NCBI RefSeq assembly: GCF_965363235.1
Contig: NC_134850.1
Span: forward strand, 40,916,602-40,980,601
Reading direction: 5' to 3'
Source of the DNA: Mytilus galloprovincialis
Taxonomy: Eukaryota > Mollusca > Bivalvia > Mytilida > Mytilidae
Length of the DNA: 64,000 nucleotides
Shown: in pieces, positions 13,745 to 62,275 of the stretch
Position numbering within the stretch: the stretch's first letter is position 1
Layout of the letters: each line of letters begins with the position of its first letter
The notes under the pieces: generated by a model
Database searches by the model: none
Seen by the model: only the letters and a program-made list of their open reading frames with translations
Told to the model about the DNA's origin: nothing
Translations under genes and position numbers: made by a program

Positions 13745-13950
13745 CATAATTGGCTTTCTACCTCAGGCATAGATTACTTTAGCTGGATTTGGCAAAACTT
13801 TTAGGAATTTTGGACCTCAATGCTCTTCAACTTCGTTCTTAATTTGGCCTTTTTAACTTTTTTGGATTCGAGCGTCACTGATGAGTGTTTTGAAGACGAA
13901 ACGTGCGTCTGGCATATATACAAAATTTATTCCTGGTATCTATGATGAGT
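13745..13950 (+). mobile_element. Retrozyme fragment (partial unit)
   Basis: This covers roughly the last 200 bases of the ~363-bp unit that forms the array at 22554-25690, in opposite orientation to that array. It carries the hammerhead at 13873-13914 and ends with the unit text 'cctggtatctatgatgagtt'. It lies beside the decayed reverse transcriptase that begins near 13960. Confidence 0.75.
13873..13914 (+). ncRNA. Type I hammerhead ribozyme, slightly decayed
   Basis: The layout is CGTCA (stem I), CTGATGA core, GTGT-TTTGA-AGAC (stem II with one mismatch), GAAA core, a short palindromic stem III region ACGTGCGT, C at the cleavage position, then TGGCA (stem I). The cores are intact; stem I and stem II each have a weak pair. 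Self-cleavage is inferred from the motif. Confidence 0.7.
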
Positions 13951-13959
13951 TTATTTCTA

Positions 13960-19447: not shown

Positions 19448-20113
19448 TTATTCTGTTGTGTGTCTCGAATGTCGCGATTGTAAACTACTCTCTCGCATGT
19501 CCACAGTTATGTGTTTACCGTGTCTGTCTACACGTATTTTGGGGTTCATTTTCTGTTTGAAAGCTTCATAAAACTCTGTAGTTTCCAAATTTCTGTCCGC
19601 AATGAAATTAGATTTAGTTTGACTTTGTTCAGTTAAAACTTTACGCAATATTTTCTGTACTCGGGTTGGATCAACTTGTCTGATTTTTCTTTCTATTTCT
19701 TTTTCAAAGTTCCTTCGATCGTACCCGCCATGATAGATTCTAATTTCTTGGGCGAAATGTCTTGCAGCTTTAGGAGACTGTACCCAAGGTCGTTTATATC
19801 CTCTTTTCTTAAGTGTGTCAAATTCTTTTGCTCGGTATTGATCGTTCAAAACACTTTCATAACCTTTTAATCGTTTGTGAGAGCGGTCTGATCGTGTTAA
19901 CATGCGATCAAGAATATTGCTTTTAAATCTTTCCTCCTTTTCAATTATTTTCTGCATTGTGTTAAGACGTGCTTCTTCTAGCATGTTAACCCTGTTCGCA
20001 CGTGCTCGTGTCTTTGAGGTTATCTCATCAAGTCTTGAAAAAGTTACTTTCATATCATAAAATGGCTTTTTTATTTGGCTTCTTTTCATTTTGAATTTGT
20101 TATCACCAACGTT
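19448..20113 (-). CDS. Basic, probably coiled-coil protein of unknown function, terminal exon
   Basis: The exon begins after a TTTTTCAG acceptor (AG at 20115-20114) and ends at the stop at 19450-19448. The first Met in frame is at 20089 (MKRSQIKKPFYDMK), giving 213 residues. An upstream coding exon cannot be excluded, because the frame stays open back to the acceptor. The composition is rich in Lys, Arg and Glu, with long helical stretches (about residues 15-75 and 130-175) that look coiled-coil. There is no signal peptide or membrane segment in this exon. A conserved-looking core is AQEIRIYHGGYDRRNF. I do not recognise the family. Long frame, biased composition, clean acceptor and nearby poly(A) signal support a real gene. 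Confidence 0.6.
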   Translation of the reverse strand, partial: NVGDNKFKMKRSQIKKPFYDMKVTFSRLDEITSKTRARANRVNMLEEARLNTMQKIIEKEERFKSNILDRMLTRSDRSHKRLKGYESVLNDQYRAKEFDTLKKRGYKRPWVQSPKAARHFAQEIRIYHGGYDRRNFEKEIERKIRQVDPTRVQKILRKVLTEQSQTKSNFIADRNLETTEFYEAFKQKMNPKIRVDRHGKHITVDMRESSLQSRHSRHTTE

Positions 20114-20213
20114 CTGAAAAACGTAAACAATAAAATAAGACAGGAGTATAAACATACATTAAAATTATAGCAAAACGATAAAATCAATATCATTAATACT
20201 GATAATAGCCAAA

Positions 20214-20889: not shown

Positions 20890-21829
20890 CAAAAATGACA
20901 CAAGAAACACATACTCTGATGCTCATGCTGATATAAAAATCAAAAATATTAATGATTGTGTCTATCTTTAAGTTTCAGATACTCAAATACTTGATATGGT
21001 AGTATCTATGTTTCTATTTTCTGAAATAATAGGTCACGGTTTTTTCCTCAATGATAACTTTTAACAATGCTTGTAACTGTATTAGTTCAGTTATAATGTA
21101 AATAGTTATTTGACTAGTGTTGTTTTTTTTTTTACATATAAATGAGAGAAAGAAGACACAGTAATGTAAATATAGATTAAAACGTACTCACTCGAAGCCT
21201 CAAAACTTCAGCTTTACCTAGTCACTTTCAGATATTGAACACTCTTACTTCACAATATCACCAATTCAATATTGATAAATAGTCAAGGTATGTAAAAAAG
21301 TTATAATCTCAAGTCATTCCCGTCAAGATTCATTTATTGACACCCTGAAAATGACATGTTGACATATATCTTTTAAATGAAAGTTATCAACTTCTACAAT
21401 CCTTTTAGCATATTAATACACCCGGTTGATAAATATATACACTAAATCGTAAATTTCAAAAAGAATTTTAAATATCTACATAGTCTATTCAAAAGAAATT
21501 AAAATACGATATTGATAGCCAGCTACGGTGAAATCTATAACTTTTGGCTACAAATATTGAAACAGTTTAAATATTTACAATTGATAAGTATTTTCCTTTT
21601 TAAACAATTGATATTAGAAAGTTTAAGTTCAATACATTTATTTTATCTGATATGTTCTATGTACGTAAAAGGTTAAAATATGTTTTTACGTAACATTAAT
21701 TTTAAATAGAAATGCGCCATTTTAGGTAATTGAGAAATATAAATAATATGGTTCAATGATTTCAAATTTCGTTCTGTCAATCGTCTATGTTATATTGTCA
21801 AATAGAATGTACTTGTACTTTGTCGTTTG
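20890..21829. other. Intergenic, nothing recognised
   Basis: AT-rich sequence with no coding frame of note on either strand. Confidence 0.35.
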
Positions 21830-22212
21830 TAGATGCTTCTGTTGAATGGATAAATCTGTATCGATGCCACTGCTGGTAGAGATTTATTTCCCCGGCTGAA
21901 GGTATCACCAGCCCAGTAGTCAGCACTTCTGTGTTGACTTGAGTTATCATTGATATGTTCATAATTATAAATTAACTGTTAACAAAACTTTGAATTTTGG
22001 AAAAACTAAGGCTTTTCTGCCTAAGGAATAGATTACCACATATGTATTTGGTAAAACTTTTAGGAATTTTTGGTCCTCAATGCTCTTCAACTTCGTACTT
22101 TATTTGGCATTTTATAACACTTTGATTCGAGTATCACTGATGAGTCTTTTGTAGACGAAACGCGCGTCTGGCGTAAATATTGAATTTTATTCCTGGTATC
22201 TATGATGAGTTT
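21830..22212 (+). mobile_element. Single retrozyme unit, plus orientation
   Basis: A full-length diverged unit reads on + from 'atgccactgctgg' through 'cctcaatgctcttcaacttc' to 'cctggtatctatgatgagtt'. It is opposite in orientation to the array starting about 340 bases downstream. It carries a hammerhead at 22132-22173. Confidence 0.8.
22132..22173 (+). ncRNA. Type I hammerhead ribozyme with weakened stem I
   Basis: The cores CTGATGA and GAAA, stem II (GTCT-TTTGT-AGAC) and the ACGCGCGTC stem III/cleavage segment are intact. Stem I is TATCA against TGGCG, with one mismatch, so activity is probably reduced. Confidence 0.75.
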
Positions 22213-22598
22213 TTTGCAGAAACAAAAATAAGCTTTAGCAAAAAAACATTATTCAAAATTTTGGTATTATTCAAAATTTTGATAATTATTGTTAAAGAAA
22301 TAAAGAATATATCTCCCTCATGCAATGATCTCATTCATTGTTCGACTTTGTTTTAATAAGCTTTGTATTTTCAAATGTGTTGACCTCGACTATCACCACT
22401 GAAGAAACATTTATTGTCGAAATGCACAGCTTGTGCATATAATGTGTATTATTACTCTTATTGTATAGGGTTACAACATAATAAAGTCATAGCATAGATG
22501 TAATACATATATGGTCATAGCAAACACAGACATGCAATATGAATACAATTTAATATAAATAAACTCATCATAGATACCAGGACTAAATTTTGAACATA

Positions 22599-22640
22599 CG
22601 TCAGACGCGCGTTTCGTCTATAAAAGACTAAACAGTGACG
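22599..22640 (-). ncRNA. Hammerhead motif, array unit 1, core destroyed
   Basis: The minus strand reads CTGTTTA where CTGATGA is required, and the last base of stem II is altered. The remaining layout is recognisable. It should be inactive. Confidence 0.7.
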
Positions 22641-22953
22641 CTTGAATCCAAAAAAGTTAAAAAGGCCAAATAAAGTACTAAGTTGAAGAGCATTGAGGAC
22701 CAAAATTCCTAAAAGCTTTGCCAAATCCGGATAGGTAATCTATTCCTGAGGTAGAAAAGCCTTAGTATTTCAAAAATTTTATAAACAGTTAATTTATAAA
22801 TATAACCATATCAATGATAATTCATGTCAGCACAAAAGTGCCGACTACTGGACTGGTGATACTCTCCGGGAAATAAATCTACACCAGCAGTGGCATCGAC
22901 CCAGTGGTTGTAAATAAACTCAACATAGATACCAGGACTAAAGTTTGTACATA

Positions 22954-22995
22954 CGCCAGACGCGCGTTTCGTCTACAAAAGACTCATCAGTGAGG
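22954..22995 (-). ncRNA. Hammerhead ribozyme, array unit 2
   Basis: CTGATGA, stem II GTCT/AGAC, GAAA and the ACGCGCGTC segment are intact. Stem I is CCTCA against TGGCG, with one C/C mismatch. Confidence 0.8.
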
Positions 22996-23316
22996 TTCGA
23001 ATCCAAAAAAGTTAAAAAGGCCAAATAAAGTACTAAGTTGAAGAGCATTGAGGACCAAAATTCCTACAAGTTTTGCCAAATCCAGCTAAGGTAATCTATT
23101 CCTGAGGTAGAAAAGCCTTAGTATTTCAAAACTTTTAAATTTTGTAAACAGTTAATTTATAAATATAACCATATCAATGATAATTCATGTCAGCACAAAA
23201 GTGCCGACTACGGGGCTGGTGATACCCTCGGGGAAATAAATCTCCACCAGCAGTGGCATCGACCGACTAGTTGTAAATAAACTCATCATAGATACCAGGA
23301 CTAAATTTTGTACATA

Positions 23317-23358
23317 CGCCAGACGCGCGTTTCGTCTACAAAAGACTCATCAGTGACG
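23317..23358 (-). ncRNA. Hammerhead ribozyme, array unit 3
   Basis: All elements are intact on the minus strand: stem I CGTCA/TGGCG (five pairs, one U-G), core CTGATGA, stem II GTCT/AGAC with loop TTTGT, core GAAA, stem III palindrome ACGCGCGT, cleavage after the C of GTC. The very short stem III suggests it works as a dimer of two motifs. Confidence 0.9.
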
Positions 23359-23679
23359 CTCGAATCCAAAAAAGTTAAAAAGGTCAAATAAAGTACTATG
23401 TTGAAGAGCGTTGAGGACCAAAATTCCTAAAAGTTTTGCCGAATCCAGCTAAGGTAATCTATTCCTGAGGTAGAAAAGCCTTAGTGTTTCAAAAATTTTA
23501 AATTTTGTAAACAGTTAATTTATGAATATAACCATATCAATGATAATTCATGTCAGCACAAAAGTGCTGACTACTGGGCTGGTGATACCCTCGGGGAAAT
23601 AAATCTCCACCAGCAGTGGCATCGACCGACTAGTTGTAAATAAACTCATCATAGATACCAGGACTAAATTTTGTACATA

Positions 23680-23721
23680 CGCCAGACGCGCGTTTCGTCT
23701 ACAAAAGACTCATCAGTGACG
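23680..23721 (-). ncRNA. Hammerhead ribozyme, array unit 4
   Basis: Identical in all paired and core positions to unit 3. Confidence 0.9.
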
Positions 23722-24042
23722 CTCGAATCCAAAAAAGTTAAAAAGGTCAAATAAGGTACTATGTTGAAGAGCGTTGAGGACCAAAATTCCTAAAAGTTTT
23801 GCCGAATCCAGCAAAGGTAATCTATTCCTGAGGTAGAAAAGCCTTAGTATTTTAAAAATTTTAAATTTTGTAAACAGTTAATTTATAAATATAACCATAT
23901 CAATGATAATTCATGTCAGCACAAAAGTGTCGACTACTGGGCTGGTGATACCCTCGGGGAAATAAATCTCCACCAGCAGTGGCATCGACCGACTAGTTGT
24001 AAATAAACTCATCATAGATACCAGGACTAAATTTTGTACATA

Positions 24043-24084
24043 CGCCAGACGCGCGTTTCGTCTACAAAAGACTCATCAGTGACG
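24043..24084 (-). ncRNA. Hammerhead ribozyme, array unit 5
   Basis: Identical in all paired and core positions to unit 3. Confidence 0.9.
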
Positions 24085-24405
24085 CTCGAATCCAAAAAAT
24101 TTAAAAAGGTCAAATAAAGTACTATGTTGAAGAGCGTTGAGGACCAAAATTCCTAAAAGTTTTGCCGAATCCAGCGAAGGTAATCTATTCCTGAGGTAGA
24201 AAAGCCTTAGTATTTCAAAAATTTTAAATTTTGTAAACAGTTAATTGATAAATATAACCATATCAATGATAATTCATGTCAGCACAAAAGTGCTGACTAC
24301 TGGGCTGGTGATACCCTCGGCGAAATAAATCTCCACCAGCAGTGGCATCGACCGACTAGTTGTAAATAAACTCATCATAGATACCAGGACTAAATTCTGT
24401 ACATA

Positions 24406-24447
24406 CGCCAGACGCGCGTTTCGTTTACAAAAGACTCATCAGTGATG
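24406..24447 (-). ncRNA. Hammerhead motif, array unit 6, weakened stems
   Basis: The catalytic cores are intact, but stem II has GTCT against AAAC (one lost pair) and stem I has CATCA against TGGCG (an A/C mismatch). Confidence 0.75.
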
Positions 24448-24768
24448 CTCGAATTCAAAAAAGTTAAAAAGGTCAAATAAAGTACTATGTTGAAGAGCGT
24501 TGAGGACCAAACTTCCTAAAAGTTTTGCCGAATCCAGCTAAGGTAATCTATTCCTGAGGTAGAAAAGCCTTAGTATTTCAAAAATTTTAAATTTTGTAAA
24601 CAGTTAATTTATAAATATAACCATATCAATGATAATTCATGTCAGCACAAAAGTGCTGACTACTGGGCTGGTGATACCCTCGGGGAAAAAAATCTCCACC
24701 AGCAGTGGCATCGACCGACTAGTTGTAAATAAACTCATCATAGATACCAGGACTAAATTTTGTACATA

Positions 24769-24810
24769 CGCCAGACGCGCGTTTCGTCTACAAAAGACTC
24801 ATCCGTGACG
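24769..24810 (-). ncRNA. Hammerhead motif, array unit 7, core mutation
   Basis: The first core reads CGGATGA instead of CTGATGA, a change at an invariant position, so activity should be lost. All stems are intact. Confidence 0.75.
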
Positions 24811-25132
24811 CTCGAATCCAAAAAAGTTTAAAAAGTTCAAATAAAGTACTATGTTGAAGAGCGTTGAGGACCAAAATTCCTAAAAGTTTTGCCGAATCCA
24901 GCTAAGGTAATCTATTCCTGAGGTAAAAAAGCCTTAGTATTTCAAAAATTTTAAATTTTGTAAACAGTTAATTTATAAATATAACCATATCAATGATAAT
25001 TCATGTCAGCACAAAAGTGTCGACTACTGGGCTGGTGATACCCTCGGGGAAATAAATCTCCACCAGCAGTGGCATCGACCGACTAGTTGTAAATAAACTC
25101 ATCATAGATACCAGGACTAAATTTTGTACATA

Positions 25133-25174
25133 CACCAGACGCGCGTTTCGTCTACAAAAGACTCATCAGTGATG
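25133..25174 (-). ncRNA. Hammerhead ribozyme, array unit 8, compensated stem I
   Basis: The cores and stem II are intact. Stem I is CATCA against TGGTG: both sides differ from the CGTCA/TGGCG consensus, so that a G-C pair has become A-U and pairing is kept. Confidence 0.85.
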
Positions 25175-25494
25175 CTCGAATCCAAAAAAGTTAAAAAGGT
25201 CAAATAAAGTACTATGTTGAAGAGCGTTGAGGACCAAAATTCCGAAAAGTTTTGCCGAATCCAGCTAAGGTAATCTATTCCTGAGTTAGAAAAGCCTTAG
25301 TATTTCAAAAATTTAAATTTTGTAAACAGTTAATTTATAAATATAACCATATCAATGATAATTCATGTCAGCACAAAAGTGCTGACTACTGGGCTGGTGA
25401 TACCCTCGGGATAATAAAGCTCCACCAGCAGTAGCATCAACCCAGTGGTGGTAAATATACTCTTAATAGATACGAGAACTACATTTTGTACATA

Positions 25495-25536
25495 CTCCAG
25501 ATGCGCGTTTCGTCTACAAAAGACTCATCAGTGACG
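25495..25536 (-). ncRNA. Hammerhead motif, array unit 9
   Basis: Cores and stem II are intact. The cleavage triplet is ATC instead of GTC, which still fits NUH, and stem I has one mismatch (CGTCA against TGGAG). Confidence 0.75.
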
Positions 25537-25716
25537 CTCGAATCCAAAAAAGTTAAAAAGGCCAATTAAAGTACTAAGTTGAAGAGCATTGAGGACCAAA
25601 ATTCCTAAAAGTTTTGCCAAATACAGCTTAGGTAATCTATGCCTGAGGTAGAAAAGCCTTAGTATTTCAAAAAATTCAAAAATTTGTAAACAGTAACCCT
25701 TTAAAAAAAAAAAAAT

Positions 25717-25855
25717 ACACACTGAGATTTAAAAACCAAAAATAACACACTGAGACTGAAATCGAAATTACACTGAGATTTAAAAAAATAAAAAACACAC
25801 ACTGAGAATTCAAAATTACACACTGAGATTTTAAAAAGACACACTGAGATGTCAC
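25717..25855 (+). repeat. Minisatellite with 'acacactgagatt' core
   Basis: Five or more imperfect copies of a 20-30-base unit built on 'acacactgaga' plus an A-rich spacer, directly after the retrozyme array. It is non-coding. Confidence 0.7.
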
Positions 25856-26027
25856 TTTAAACAAATTGTGCTTTGTCTATATGCTTTTTTGTGCTTCATT
25901 GTGACTTTTTTTTTTACAGCGATTAAGATTAGAACACAATGTTGAATGCCGTACCCCTTTTTGACATTTTTACCTATTATGTCTGTTTGTTATAATCACA
26001 AATCGTTGTCAATATAATGGAATTTGA

Positions 26028-26205
26028 TATAAAACCAGGTGTAATCTACCGTTTTCTACATATTAAGAAAATGTCTGTAGAAAGTCAGGAATATGTTAGT
26101 TGTTATCTATTCGTTTGAATTGTTTCAGCTTCGATTTTCACATTTGATTAGGGACTTTCCTTTTTAAATTTTGATCGGAGTTCAATATTTTTGTGATTTT
26201 ACTTT
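26028..26205 (+). repeat. Dispersed repeat family C
   Basis: It begins 'gatataaaaccaggtgtaat' and ends 'ttcaatatttttgtgatttt', matching the copy at 13536-13740. A weaker piece follows near 26575-26660. The open frame at 26193-26435 starts inside this repeat and has no domain. Confidence 0.5.
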
Positions 26206-26929
26206 TTACACATGTTCTGAGAAATCTGTTGTGCTACCTTGAAATAGAATTGCAAGTTTTCTATGATTTGTTTATGAACAATAAACTTCATGTTTCTTTT
26301 CTGTTCTATGTGCAGTGTTACGGCTGGTACATGCAACACTGCGACATTTCCATGATCGTATATGGTCAATACGAAATACTAAAAAAATCATTTCTACACT
26401 ATAATTATGTTTTGTACCACGTTCACTGTACATAGACGATATCAATCACTTTAAATTACCAAACAACTGATGGTCTTTTTACAATATTTGCAATAACATT
26501 CAAAGCTAGTTGATCCTCACTAGCAATCACTAAGGTAACTCTGTTATATGACAGTTGTTTTCCATTCATCTAGTGTTTTTGGGCTTTTGATTTTGCCATT
26601 TGATGATGCTTTTCGATATACTTTCCTTAGAGTTCGATACTTTTGCTATTTTTTTCTCTGATTTTCACTTATTGTTTCATTTGTGAACATTGATTGTTAA
26701 CACAAATCTGCTTTTCTGTTGTTTCTTTAGAAGTAAATTATTTTATGCAAAATTTATGTTGTTACATGCTGTGGAACAATAAAAATCCCCACTTTAAATG
26801 ATATAGAAGCCTTTAATGACACAGAAACGTTTACAATACGGTTTGTAACAGTAGCCAAATCATATCGAAAGCCATTGTCTGTCCGTACCAAGAAGAATGA
26901 CAGTTAAATTAGTTCCTTATCAAGACAAA

Positions 26930-28485: not shown

Positions 28486-29090
28486 GTTAACGGTCCGTGT
28501 ATATCTGCGTCCATTCGTTTTTCGTTTTGAAATATCAAAAACAAAAAACAAAAAACGAAAGTGTTTTCATTTTTCGTTTTTGATTTCATAAAAACCAAAA
28601 TGAAAAACGAAAGTGTTTTCATTTTTCGTTTTGCTTAAAAACCAAAACGAAAAACGAAAGTGTTTTCATTTTTCGTTTTTGATTTCTTAAAAACCAAAAT
28701 GAAAAACAAAAGTGTTTTCGTTTTTCGTTTTTGATTTCACAAACAAAAAACGAAAAACAAAAGTATTTTCATTTTTCAATTTTGATTTCACAAAAACTAA
28801 AATCGAAAAATGAAAGTGTTTTCATTTTTCATTTTTGATTTCACAAAAACAAAAAACGAAAAACGAAAGTGTATTTATGTTATCTTTCCAACACAGTTTA
28901 ATTGTCATTCAAAAAATGACAATGTTGTCATTTGTCATTCATTTAAAGGTCGTTAAAGTATACATGCACAGCGGTTGTCAGATCAATACTACTTTAATCG
29001 AAGATAATGTCGACGGATGCAAAAGTCTTTATCAATCTAAACAATAAGGGTGCGTGATCTTTACTTTTTAAGGTTGGAGAGGTTAATCTA
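28486..29090 (+). repeat. Repeat family H, plus copy (CGTTTTT minisatellite with unique tail)
   Basis: It starts near 'ttaacggtccgtgtatatct'. It holds about six ~55-60-base units of AAAACGAAA/TTTTCGTTTTT words (28510-28870), then a unique tail encoding the same short frame as its partner at 48660-49310. The partner is a near-identical reverse complement. DNA-level identity is high throughout, so the shared reading frame is not evidence of coding. Confidence 0.75.
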
Positions 29091-48659: not shown

Positions 48660-49310
48660 ACTGAAAGATGGATCTTGGTCATCAATTCTAATAATCTTGG
48701 ATCGACCTTTCTAAACTTAAAAGTAATAAAGTTCACGCATCCATATTGTTCCGATTGCTAAAGACTTTTGCATCCGTCGACATTATCTTCGATTAAAGTA
48801 GTATTGATCTGACAACCGCTGTGCATGTATACTTTAACGACCTTTAAATGAATGACAAATGACAACATTGTCATTTTTTGAATGACAATTAAACTGTGTT
48901 CGAAAGATAACATAAATACACTTTCGTTTTTCGTTTTTTGTTTTTGTGAAATCAAAAATGAAAAATGAAAACACTTTCATTTTTCGATTTTAGTTTTTGA
49001 GAAATCAAAATTGAAAAATGAAAATACTTTTGTTTTTCGTTTTTTGTTTGTGAAATCAAAAACGAAAAACGAAAACACTTTTGTTTTTCATTTTAATTTT
49101 TAAGAAATCAAAAACGAAAAATGAAAACACTTTCGTTTTTCGTTTTGGTTTTTAAGAAATCAAAAACGAAAAATGAGAACACTTTCGTTTTTCATTTTGG
49201 TTTTTATGAAATCAAAAACGAAAAATGAAAACACTTTCGTTTTTTGTTTTTTGTTTTTGATATTTCAAAACGAAAAACGAATGGACGCAGATATACACGG
49301 ACTGTTAACA
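48660..49310 (-). repeat. Repeat family H, minus copy
   Basis: Near-identical reverse complement of 28486-29090, including the CGTTTTT minisatellite (48920-49270) and the unique tail. The homology ends at 'acggactgttaa' on the right and fades near 48660 on the left. Confidence 0.75.
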
Positions 49311-49949: not shown

Positions 49950-50908
49950 GAACCTAGCTTAAAGGAAATACACAAAGAGACAACCATTGACGAGAATTCT
50001 CAATTTTTTTTTAACCGTTTCTTTAAAATCGTGAGCATCGTGTTTCAACAAGAAAGATAACTCATGTGTCAGTATTAATATTATGCCCATCATTATGTAA
50101 TAATCAACAGTAATTAATTGATTTAACCACTTTTAAACTGTTAAAGCATACACATCATTTCTGAGAAAACTGAACATGTTGTAACTTAATTTATGACAAA
50201 TCGAGGCAATCGCAAATGGAAAAGACCAAGCTGAGATGAAAATGATCAATAAAGTGATGTCTGTTTTATACAGAGAAAGAGGTGTTTACTCTTTCGGTGA
50301 AACAAGTCCTACTACAATCGGTGCTCGTGTGATTTCGATTCCCTTTACTCTTTTGTCATCTGTTTATTAATCAATTGTTAATTTGCATTTATACATTGTC
50401 TGATAGACTTTTGAACAGTGGTTAACTACCTAGAATTATAAGACTGTCATATATTATTAAAAGATAATAACGGTTTCAATTCATCACTTTTACTAGTACT
50501 TTCACTGCTTTCACAGATCTTCAGGTAATGTGACTTGTATATAAAACATATAAACAATATAAATATATAAACAAGTCTAAATTGAAAACTACGTTCAAAC
50601 CTATGATTGCGTTGGATAAAAACCGCAATTTTTATACGTGTGCATGTAAAACAAATTTCGTTGTAGAAGGGTCTAAATACAGCACAAACAACATTTTCCA
50701 AAAGACCAAAAAAGTGAAAACGTATATTTAAACAAAACGCATTTGACTAACAGGTCGAACAACAGATGTTCTTAAACCCTGCTGACTGCCATTGGCGATT
50801 GCCAAATAAAATTGATCACGAGATGTAACAAAATGGATCTTAATATAAATTTAATACTAAACAGAACTGTTTGTGTAATCCATTCAAATCTATCGCTATC
50901 TTTACAAC
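49950..50908. other. 5' flank of the Penelope-like element
   Basis: AT-rich sequence with no recognised gene. I looked for a direct copy of the sequence after the element (a pseudo-LTR) and did not see one. The 5' boundary of the element is unknown. Confidence 0.35.
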
Positions 50909-53677
50909 ATGGATAGCGCACAGCATTTCAAGAAATTAAGATCTTTAACTAAAAAGAAACTACAAACTGAACATCATTTATCTAACTTACAAAATTATAT
51001 TCAAAGTAAAAATGTACCAAAAGGTTTAAACATCAAAGTGAGTCCCCAGGCACCGGGACATAAATCCAAAAGATTCATGAGCCGTTGGAATGAAATTCTG
51101 TTTAACTGTTCAATCCAGCTTCTTCAACTGTTACTTTCTTTTACAACCACAAATTACAAACAAATTGTAAATGAAATATCAGATATCATCAACAATAGTA
51201 ACATTTCTCGTGACGATTTAGCAATAATTAAACGTCGCCTCGCAGATATTGAACAAATTGAACTATCGAAACATAAAGAAAAACAAAGGAATAAATTTCA
51301 AAGAGATAAAATTCACACTGTCCATTTAAATCAGCATATGAATGATATTAATACAACAAACCATAAGATCCCTAGAAAAAGAAAATTTAAAAGATGGAAA
51401 CAAAAAACTGAAAGCATTGTTGTAAATTTGTCATCTAAAGAACTTACACGTGCTGAGGAATCTCTTTTAAGTCTTTTAAGTAAAGGTTTAAACTTCTGTC
51501 CTATCCCATCAACTGTAAATAACTTTCAGCTAGACGAAGACCTAGACCAATTCGCTAGACGTTTACGCTTGAAAGATTTTTTCTACAATAGGGGCAAGAA
51601 AAACCTTGAAGAAGCCGGATTAACAGATTCAGATACCGACACCAATGAAGAAGTCACGCCCATCCCAAAATTTAGAAAAAAAAGTTCATGGAAACCACCA
51701 AAGAGTAAAAATGATAACTTGGAGTCATTCATTAACTACGTGAGGTCTGATATAAAGTCCTGTATAACAAATACAAGAAATTATAATTTATCCAAGTCAG
51801 AAAGTATAGCTTTGAAAGCGTTAAAAGATCAAGAGGATATTGTAATAAAACCTGCCGACAAAGGGGGCGCTGTGGTTGTCATGAATAAAACAGATTATAT
51901 AGCAGAGGGGAATCGCCAACTTTCTAACTCCATTTTTTATAAACAATTAACCACAGATCCAACGCTTAATACTATTCGAAGGATCAACACCATCCTTCAA
52001 GAGATGTTCGACAATAAGCATATAGACAATGACACCTTTGATTATCTCCGACCTCTTGAGAACGAAGCAAAGGCCGGACGATTCTATATGTTGCCTAAAA
52101 TACATAAAACGGGCAATCCAGGTCGACCAATTGTGTCAGCGAATAGTCATCCAACTGAAAAGATATCAGAATTTGTAGACCATCATCTAAGACCTCATGT
52201 GAAAGAACTACCCTCATTCATTCAAGATACAACTGATTATCTCAAGAAAATGGAAAGCCTCAATCCTCTACCAAGCAATACTATACTTGCATCCATGGAC
52301 GTGTCTTCTTTATATACCAACATTCCACAAGACGAAGGAATAGTAGCGTGTGAAGAGGCATGGAACACTCGTAGTGAAAAAAATCCTCCTACTGAGTGCC
52401 TTGTTACACTTCTGAAACTAGTACTGGAGAATAACAACTTCTCTTTCAATGAAAAACACTATCTCCAGATAGGCGGTACTAGTATGGGCACAAAAATGGC
52501 CCCGTCATATGCCAACATATTTATGGGCCAACTTGAAAAACGCCTCTTGGCTAGTGCTCCATATCAGCCCTTATCATGGTTCCGATTCATTGACGATATT
52601 GATTTCAAATGGACAGATTCACAAGAACATCTTAATGAATTTCTAGAACACTGTAACTCTTTCCACCTTTCAATAAAATTTACATATGAATCATCTATGG
52701 AGAAAATAAACTTCCTCGATACTACGAGTTACATCAAGAACGGAACCATTATAACGGACCTTCATACCAAACAAACGACAAACATCAATTTATTTCTCCT
52801 AAAAGTTGCCATCCTAAACACTGCTCCCGTGGTATCCCATTCAGCCAGGAATTGCGAATCAAGAGAATATGCTCTACTGAAAATACGAAAAATGCTAGAC
52901 TTGCACAACTTCGTAAACATCTAGTTGTTCGAGGATACAATAACAACATCATTGATAGCGCTTTCGATAGAGCAAACAGAACTAGTCGCCAAGAACTTCT
53001 TGAGTACAAAGATAAGAATAAAGCAGCTAACAGAACACCCCTTGTACTCACCTACCATCCTGATTTTAAAAATGTGTCATCCATTGTTCAGAAGCATTGG
53101 AAAATTAATAGAAAATGATTTAAATCTAAAAAAAGTATTTTCATCACCACCAGTCATGGCCTTCAGAAGACCTAAAAACATCCGTGACAAATTAGTGACA
53201 TCTGTATTAGCAAAGCAGCCTAATCCATCGCCCGGTTGCTACAAACAATGTGGTCGAAGGAATTGTTTGTGTTGTAAAGCTGCCAATACAAGCAGTTCTT
53301 TCATCAGCTCCGTTACTAAACAAAATTATACCATCTACTCTAATTCCAACTGTAAAACGGAGAACTCAATTTATATATTAATATGTGACACTTGTGGCAT
53401 TCAGTATGTGGGAGAAACAATGGACAAATTTAATATTCGGCTCAATAACCATCGTTCATCGTACAAAATCAACAAAAACTGTCCTCTCACAAGACATCTT
53501 CGTTCAACGAAACATCCTTTTGATAATGTTACTTTCCAAATTATAGAAGTCAACACCGAATGGGACACCACGGCGAGAAGGAGAAGAGAAAACTTTTGGA
53601 TCCACCAACTCCACACTTTAGAACCTGATGGTCTTAACGAAAAAGACGAAAAAAGATACAGGAAAGATAAAGAATAA
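50909..53677 (+). pseudogene. Penelope-like retroelement polyprotein (RT + GIY-YIG), nearly intact, two frameshifts
   Basis: An ATG at 50909 opens 671 codons. The N-terminal region includes SLLSKGLNFCPIP; then come KPADKGGAVVV (residues 314 on), LPKIHKTGNPGRPIVS (395 on), MDVSSLYTNIP (D464), GTSMGTKMAPSYAN and the RT catalytic FIDDID (560-565). After about 52775 the homologous frame moves to a second frame, in which CHPKHCSRGIP and RIKRICST are read. Near 53100, in an A run, it returns to the first frame, where the frame continues to 53677. That part has a Cys-rich knuckle (CGRRNCLCC), then a GIY-YIG endonuclease region with YILIC, YVGET and a later ENFWIHQ that would supply the catalytic Glu. 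The two 1-nt shifts compensate, but they leave a stop at 52922-52924. Known Penelope-like elements use this RT and endonuclease for target-primed insertion. Apart from the shifts it looks young. The subclass is not resolved (Neptune- or Poseidon-like). Confidence 0.92.
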
Positions 53678-53944: not shown

Positions 53945-53986
53945 GCACGCTTGATAAAGCTAGTTGGTCTAGCGAAATATTGCGTT
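53945..53986 (+). ncRNA. Candidate decayed hammerhead ribozyme in the Penelope-like 3' region
   Basis: The order is ACGC, TTGATAA, one extra A, a perfect five-pair stem GCTAG/CTAGC with loop TTGGT, GAAA, a short ATAT palindrome, then GCGT. ACGC can pair with GCGT as stem I. The first core departs from CTGATGA at two positions that pair with each other in the hammerhead (C3 and G8, here U and A). Penelope-like elements are known to carry hammerheads near their ends. The deviation and the extra A make activity doubtful, and chance is possible. Confidence 0.35.
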
Positions 53987-54059
53987 TATTTTCATTATTT
54001 TGTAAATATTTTAAACATTCTTATATTTACATACTAAATAGTGTGTTAAAATTACATTG

Positions 54060-55127: not shown

Positions 55128-55275
55128 CATATATTGCTCAGTCTTTAGTTTTTTATGTTGTGTTATTTGTTCCGTTGTTTGCCTTTCGGTCGTTTTTCGT
55201 TTTTGCTTTGATATGGTCAGTTTGTTTTCGGCTTATGGGTTTGCATCTCCCTTTGGTATCTGTCGCCTCTTCAAC
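55128..55275 (+). repeat. Dispersed repeat family E, partial
   Basis: 'tcagtctttagttttttatg' and 'ctccctttggtatctgtcgc' match the family order. It runs straight into a retrozyme piece. Confidence 0.5.
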
Positions 55276-55515
55276 TTCGTTCTTTATTTGGCCTTTTAAA
55301 CTTTTTATTAAATACAGCTAAGGTAATCTATGCCTGAGGTAGAAAAGCCTCAGTATTTCAAAAAATTCAAATATTTGTAAACAGTAAATTTATAAATATA
55401 ACCATATCAATGACAATTCATGTCAGTACAAGCACAAAGAACGCTGATGAGTCTTTTGTAGACGAATCGCGCGTCTGGCGTATATACTAAATTTAGTCCT
55501 GGTATCTATGATGAG
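55265..55515 (+). mobile_element. Rearranged retrozyme unit
   Basis: It contains the unit text 'cttcaacttcgttctttatt', then a piece in the opposite sense ('ctaaggtaatctatgcctga'), then a truncated hammerhead and 'cctggtatctatgatgagtt'. Part of the unit appears to be inverted, suggesting template switching or recombination. Confidence 0.65.
55443..55480 (+). ncRNA. Truncated hammerhead motif
   Basis: CTGATGA and stem II are intact, but the second core reads GAAT and the 5' strand of stem I is replaced by unrelated sequence. It should be inactive. Confidence 0.65.
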
Positions 55516-55885
55516 TTTATTTACAACCACTGAGTCGATGCCACTGCTGGTGGAGATTTATTTCCCCGAGGGTATCACAAGCCCTGTAGTCAGCACTTTT
55601 TGTGCTTGTGCTGACATGAATTGTCATTGATATGGTTATATTTATAAATTTACTGTTTACAAATATTTGAATTTTTTGAAATACTAAGGCTTTTCTACCT
55701 CAGGCATAGATTACCTTGGCTGTATTTGGCAAAAATTTTAGGAATTTTGGTCCTCAATGCTCTTCAACTTCGTACTTCATTTGGCCTTTTTAACTTTTTT
55801 GGATTCGAGCGTCACTGATGAGACGAAACGCGCGTCTGGCATATATACTAAATTAGTCCTGGTATCTATGATGAGGTTATTTGTA
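55516..55885 (+). mobile_element. Full retrozyme unit with deleted ribozyme stem II
   Basis: A complete unit reads on + from 'ttacaaccactgagtcgatg' to 'cctggtatctatgatgaggt'. Its ribozyme segment at 55813-55842 goes straight from CTGATGA to GACGAAAC: about ten bases, including one arm and the loop of stem II, are missing. The copy cannot self-cleave. Confidence 0.8.
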
Positions 55886-62089: not shown

Positions 62090-62275
62090 AAATCAGTGAT
62101 TTTACAAAATCTCTAGCTCTATTTTCAGTGATTTTGTAAAATCCCTAAAATTTCAGGGATTTTACAAAACCACTGAAACTGTTAGTGATTTTACAAAACC
62201 ACTGAAACTGTTAGTGATTTTACAAAATCACTGATTAGTCCAGTGATTTTACAAATTCACTGTAACATATATACA
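62090..62275 (+). repeat. Palindromic tandem repeat, GTGATTTTACAAAATCAC theme
   Basis: About six imperfect copies of a 28-35-base unit built on 'agtgattttacaaaa' and 'cactgaaactgtt'. The units contain both a motif and its reverse complement. Confidence 0.8.

Follow-up and report, generated by a model that had tools for sequence, protein, structure and literature searches.

A tandem array of probable non-LTR retrozyme origin in Mytilus galloprovincialis and the common 3' end of its dispersed copies

We suggest that a tandem array at positions 22556-25694 of the window, i.e. of the whole 64,000-nucleotide stretch of Mytilus galloprovincialis DNA analyzed here, is very probably a copy of a known Mytilus non-LTR retrozyme that was inserted by reverse transcription from a fixed start and subsequently grew in register. 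Because non-LTR retrozymes have been published for M. galloprovincialis, the array is most likely a locus of this known element in the species in which the element was described. The kind of element is thus already known in this mussel, and what is added here is (i) the pattern of ends in four copies and (ii) the apparent growth of the array in place.

A tandem array with one hammerhead motif per unit

Tandem Repeats Finder gives a period of 363 bp with 8.7 copies and 95% matches over 22556-25694, in agreement with the tandem unit of ~363 bp in the original prediction, and alignment to the unit places the RNA sense on the minus strand. No stop-to-stop ORF of at least 120 aa is present in the array, and the G+C content is 0.35 in both 2-kb segments that hold it (22001-24000 and 24001-26000).

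A search for the 32-nt hammerhead core that allowed up to three mismatches gave 12 sites in the window, compared with none in 100 dinucleotide shuffles. Nine of these occurrences lie on the minus strand of the array (core starts at 22604, 22959, 23322, 23685, 24048, 24411, 24774, 25138 and 25500) and the cleavage sites are spaced by 355, 363 (five times), 364 and 362 nt. Together with the matches to the Rfam type I model, this bears out the earlier claim of one minus-strand motif per unit in nine copies. The covariance search that had been proposed as a check gives matches of RF00163 (Hammerhead_1) to seven of the nine motifs in a scan of 21500-26500 at E ≤ 1, two of them above the gathering score of 34 bits, i.e. 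those of unit 2 (22953-22996, 36.7 bits) and unit 8 (25132-25175, 34.9 bits). In the same scan, the motif of unit 9 is matched by RF00008 (type III) only (25502-25540, with 26.3 bits where the cut-off is 48.5), while the motif of unit 1 has no Rfam match at E ≤ 1. When the whole window is scanned at E ≤ 1, where E-values are larger than in the scan of 21500-26500, RF00163 matches six of the nine motifs and RF00008 one. Exact-pattern scans of viral contigs gave no locus for the hammerhead core, the 3' tail or the cleavage junction. A 15-letter string from the core gave no match in a full-text literature search, which says little since papers rarely print sequences.

The state of each motif was read with a strict scan demanding CTGANGA, GAAA, at least three pairs in stem II, at least one pair beyond A-U in stem III and at least four of five pairs in helix I. 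Five of the nine motifs in the array pass (22959, 23322, 23685, 24048 and 25138, corresponding to units 2, 3, 4, 5 and 8) and a single motif passes outside the array, at 22137 on the plus strand; as a control, 20 windows shuffled in 200-base blocks gave two matches in total. All three of the units originally singled out as fully intact, i.e. units 3-5, pass the scan, but they are not alone in doing so. The minus-strand motifs of unit 3 (23316..23359), unit 4 (23679..23722) and unit 5 (24042..24085) are intact and score 32.5 bits each, which is under the Rfam cut-off, and the motif of unit 2 has an intact core and one mismatch in helix I. Unit 8 is also intact and carries two changes in helix I that jointly keep a pair, converting G-C to A-U, and unit 6 has only one of these two changes; as a single case, this pair-keeping double change is suggestive only. 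The remaining motifs are altered: that of unit 1 (22604..22635) has a changed core with three mismatches, that of unit 6 (24405..24448, 26.2 bits) has lost one pair in stem II and one in helix I, that of unit 7 (24768..24811, 26.2 bits) has a changed core base, and that of unit 9 (25500..25531) has lost one pair in stem III.

As read from the sequence, stem III consists of an A-U and a C-G pair closed by the loop GCGC. The segment ACGCGCGU is self-complementary, and two hammerheads could therefore pair as a dimer, as has been published for amphibian motifs (PMC7229834). If the intact motifs alone cut, a transcript of the array would release three monomers of 363 nt (22959-23321, 23322-23684 and 23685-24047) and, from 24048-25137, a trimer of 1090 nt.

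Folding predictions were also made for the putative RNA. The circular fold of unit 4, the only one of the folded units 2-5 that was compared with shuffles, is no more stable than its shuffles (z = -0.7), and the antisense circle likewise lies within the shuffled range (z = -0.9); the idea of a stable self-paired circle was rejected on these values. The minimum-energy fold of the isolated 44-nt motif is a competing hairpin at -13.1 kcal/mol, compared to -5.7 kcal/mol for the hammerhead pairing.

Comparison with published retrozymes

Cervera and de la Pena 2020 (PMC7229834) describe repeats of 350-390 bp in M. galloprovincialis that together hold about 5000 type I hammerheads, and the original prediction was correct in stating that retrozymes are reported in mussels. 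According to the same study, a cloned M. galloprovincialis repeat self-cleaves at about 0.1 per min, circRNA levels on northern blots are high, notably in gonads and mantle, and mussel retrozyme RNA is circularized by RtcB. Metazoan non-LTR retrozymes are described there as tandem repeats of ~150-450 bp with a G+C content below 50% and without LTRs or protein-coding regions. The array shares with the published M. galloprovincialis elements the type I hammerhead, present once per unit, the tandem arrangement and the low G+C content, and its unit of 363 bp lies within their size range. In the description of these elements in PMC7229834, nothing contradicts the features of the array; the likeness to these elements, whose circRNA sequences are MN642551-MN642576, is one of description. 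In total, a type I hammerhead with a very short stem III, tandem units of 363 bp, low G+C content and a mussel host support that the array fits the published non-LTR retrozymes.

More distant parallels exist. The satellite retrozymes of newt and axolotl (~330-350 bp, PMC7229834) likewise consist of tandem type I units with a very short stem III and a palindromic tetraloop; their host is unrelated, and the likeness is one of description. Penelope-like elements with minimal hammerheads (PMC7229834, PMC7761336) also carry type I motifs in tandem copies and have been proposed as retrozyme helpers, and they encode a reverse transcriptase, whereas the array has no ORF of at least 120 aa. In passages of PMC10886601, retrozymes appear as a comparison only.

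Dispersed copies with a common 3' end

When the unit was compared by BLAST with the 64-kb window, to which all copy counts refer, three loci (B, C and D) were found in addition to the array (A). In the following, unit position 1 is the base that directly follows the cleavage site. Copy B (21861..22215, plus strand) runs from unit position 60 across the cleavage junction to position 46 and lies in the opposite orientation to the array, tail to tail with it; its hammerhead (22131-22174, plus strand) passes the strict scan. Copy C (13755..13956, plus strand) runs from position 209 over the junction to position 47, and its hammerhead has a changed stem II and scores 28.9 bits. The main sense piece of copy D (55444..55882, plus strand) comprises 1.2 units from position 332 to position 47, with two decayed hammerheads at 55444 and about 55815 (plus strand). 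On the 5' side of this piece, alignment to the unit reveals an inverted piece (55311..55431, minus strand, unit positions 124-243), which is preceded by a 40-nt sense piece (55267-55306, plus strand, unit positions 277-316). Including these 5' pieces copy D spans 55267-55882, and its outermost sense piece starts at unit position 277. The inverted piece resembles a twin-priming inversion.

The 3' ends of all four loci fall at almost the same point of the unit, i.e. at position 48 in A, 46 in B, and 47 in both C and D; the 3' tail of the array (22556..22603, minus strand) aligns to position 48 with a last base that is perhaps a chance match. The 5' ends vary, being at positions 170, 60, 209 and, for the main sense piece of copy D, 332. 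Four ends within 2 nt on a circle of 363 nt would be expected by chance with a probability of ~5e-7 if ends were uniformly distributed, in a test that was picked after the ends had been seen. Past the 3' ends, the first 8 bases differ in all four copies and the longest string shared within 40 bases is 5-6 bases; with such unrelated flanks, the four copies look like separate insertions. All four copies cross the cleavage junction, which argues that the template was circular or multimeric rather than a cut linear monomer.

These observations bear on the possibility that the array is a plain satellite, built by unequal exchange alone and carrying the ribozyme as a passenger without a present role. 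A mobile step would be needed to account for the three further copies dispersed over the 64 kb, which share their 3' end but not their surroundings, and M. galloprovincialis expresses such repeats as circRNA (PMC7229834). We therefore regard the plain satellite as improbable, even though within the array the ribozyme is as variable as the rest of the unit and, as described below, a block of derived bases suggests growth in register.

No target-site duplications above chance were found, the longest exact strings shared by the 40-nt flanks of the four copies being 4-6 nt, a length reached in 69-99% of shuffles. Metazoan retrozymes are stated to have target-site duplications longer than 4 bp "when present" (PMC7229834), and because of this wording a missing duplication does not exclude membership among the retrozymes. 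The absence of a duplication either counts against a simple target-primed insertion or reflects the age of the copies.

Alternatively, the copies could have spread as DNA, with circles from the array re-inserting elsewhere and the shared 3' end representing a recombination hot spot or the end of a DNA element. DNA circles released from tandem arrays could likewise be the source of copies that cross the junction, and the lack of target-site duplications above chance at the four copies is in line with such a route. A constant 3' end combined with variable 5' ends and an inverted piece on the 5' side, as found in copy D, is typical of target-primed reverse transcription. Given this pattern, and given the abundant RNA circles published for M. 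galloprovincialis (PMC7229834), we consider a spread as DNA very improbable and favor insertion by reverse transcription.

Conservation of the ribozyme was compared with that of the remaining unit. Among the units of the array, 10 of 44 hammerhead sites are variable as against 65 of 319 sites elsewhere, so that the ribozyme shows no extra conservation. Relative to the array consensus, the hammerhead and the rest differ at 2/44 and 44/306 positions in copy B, at 4/44 and 12/158 in copy C, and at 11/50 and 27/360 in copy D, the hammerhead of which carries a deletion. Selection on the ribozyme was therefore considered and set aside, there being no clear signal either within the array or between copies B, C and D. 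A hammerhead as variable as the rest of its unit fits decay after insertion.

Probable growth of the array in place

Ten sites in the unit have two states that are each present in two or more units of the array, and seven of these ten fit one block of shared derived bases. Sites 53, 55 and 57, which copies B and C do not cover, are derived in units 2-7 and of the ancestral type in units 1 and 8 and in copy D. Sites 244, 275, 286 and 301 are derived in units 3-8 and of the ancestral type in units 1, 2 and 9 and in copies B, C and D. The three remaining sites (117, 118 and 328) are patchy and fall outside this pattern. The distribution of the seven sites is that of six unit lengths carrying derived bases, lying in register inside an older insertion of ~2.7 units. 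In-register growth through unequal exchange or conversion would account for these seven sites; no such preservation of register would be expected from retrotransposition into the array. On these grounds, a later, satellite-like expansion of the array at its present site appears to have taken place. The original prediction had set a retrozyme against a satellite: the retrozyme part is supported, but the two are not alternatives, the copies pointing to retroelement-like insertion plus later satellite-like growth.

A model for insertion and spread

Combining the features of the copies with the published data, we infer the following sequence of events for the array: (i) the intact hammerheads are predicted to cleave minus-strand transcripts after GTC, which would give 363-nt monomers, (ii) a host RNA ligase would close the monomers into circles, a process that has been published for this species, (iii) another element would provide a reverse transcriptase, with a Penelope-like element as its most plausible source, (iv) reverse transcription would start at one fixed place ~47 nt downstream of the cleavage site, (v) the enzyme would travel round the circular RNA, or along multimeric RNA, producing copies that share their 3' end, differ in their 5' ends and in some cases exceed one unit, (vi) unequal exchange or a related kind of recombination would enlarge the inserted copy without loss of register, and (vii) the units would then decay like ordinary repeats.

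As a tentative extension of this model, about which we are slightly more doubtful than confident, mussel retrozymes in general may insert by reverse transcription of circular RNA from one point ~47 nt past the cleavage site, perhaps for more than one round. The part of PMC7229834 covered here does not describe a fixed 3' end or later growth in place, and two of its passages, on target-site duplication, target and integration, say nothing of a fixed 3' end. In PMC7761336, retrozyme repeats are noted to show no conserved motif that would help to deduce the helper. If the extension is true, the fixed 3' end would be where the helper reverse transcriptase recognizes its template or is primed, and the helper could be identified by comparing this end, genome-wide, with those of autonomous elements. 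A constant 3' end, found here in four of four copies, would if it holds genome-wide be a pointer to the helper, and rolling-circle reverse transcription would become testable from sequence alone.

A Penelope-like element and other features of the window

Penelope-like elements as a group encode a GIY-YIG nuclease. One such element lies at 50879-53677 on the plus strand, with its reverse transcriptase domain (PF00078, 48.7 bits) in the ORF 50879-52924 and its GIY-YIG domain (PF01541, 28.8 bits) in the ORF 52925-53677 of the same frame. The stop between the two ORFs indicates that the element is broken. A third ORF in another frame (52690-53118) resembles, by eye, the stretch between the two domains. 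Among the best 120 of 2662 matches to the Penelope-like protein, the top-ranked named ones are from Mytilus edulis and M. trossulus. Penelope-like elements have been named a strong helper candidate for retrozymes and coexist with them in the published M. galloprovincialis case (PMC7229834), as they do here. A search for sequence in common with the retrozyme gave nothing in the Penelope-like element, in its flanks or in the spacer 22216-22555, and the link between retrozyme and Penelope-like element is thus one of co-occurrence only.

Two further hammerhead-like stretches were noted by eye: a degenerate minimal one at 53945-53990 (plus strand) downstream of the Penelope-like element, and one at 22395-22441 (plus strand) in the spacer that separates copy A from copy B, in which CTGAAGA and GAAA accompany a stem III-like hairpin and helix I pairs poorly. 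Both were rejected as hammerheads, having no Rfam match at E ≤ 1 and failing the strict scan. An ORF of 235 aa at 19448-20155 (minus strand) matches a protein labeled Mytilus galloprovincialis with 99% identity over 95% of its length, in keeping with the host. At 62093-62266, a short fold-back unit is repeated in tandem with a period of 29/58 bp, and matches there to miRNA models lie below the curated cut-offs. Two tandem arrays with a period of 52 bp and 7.0 copies each are found at 28514-28872 and 48918-49281, and by eye their consensus units look like reverse complements of each other.
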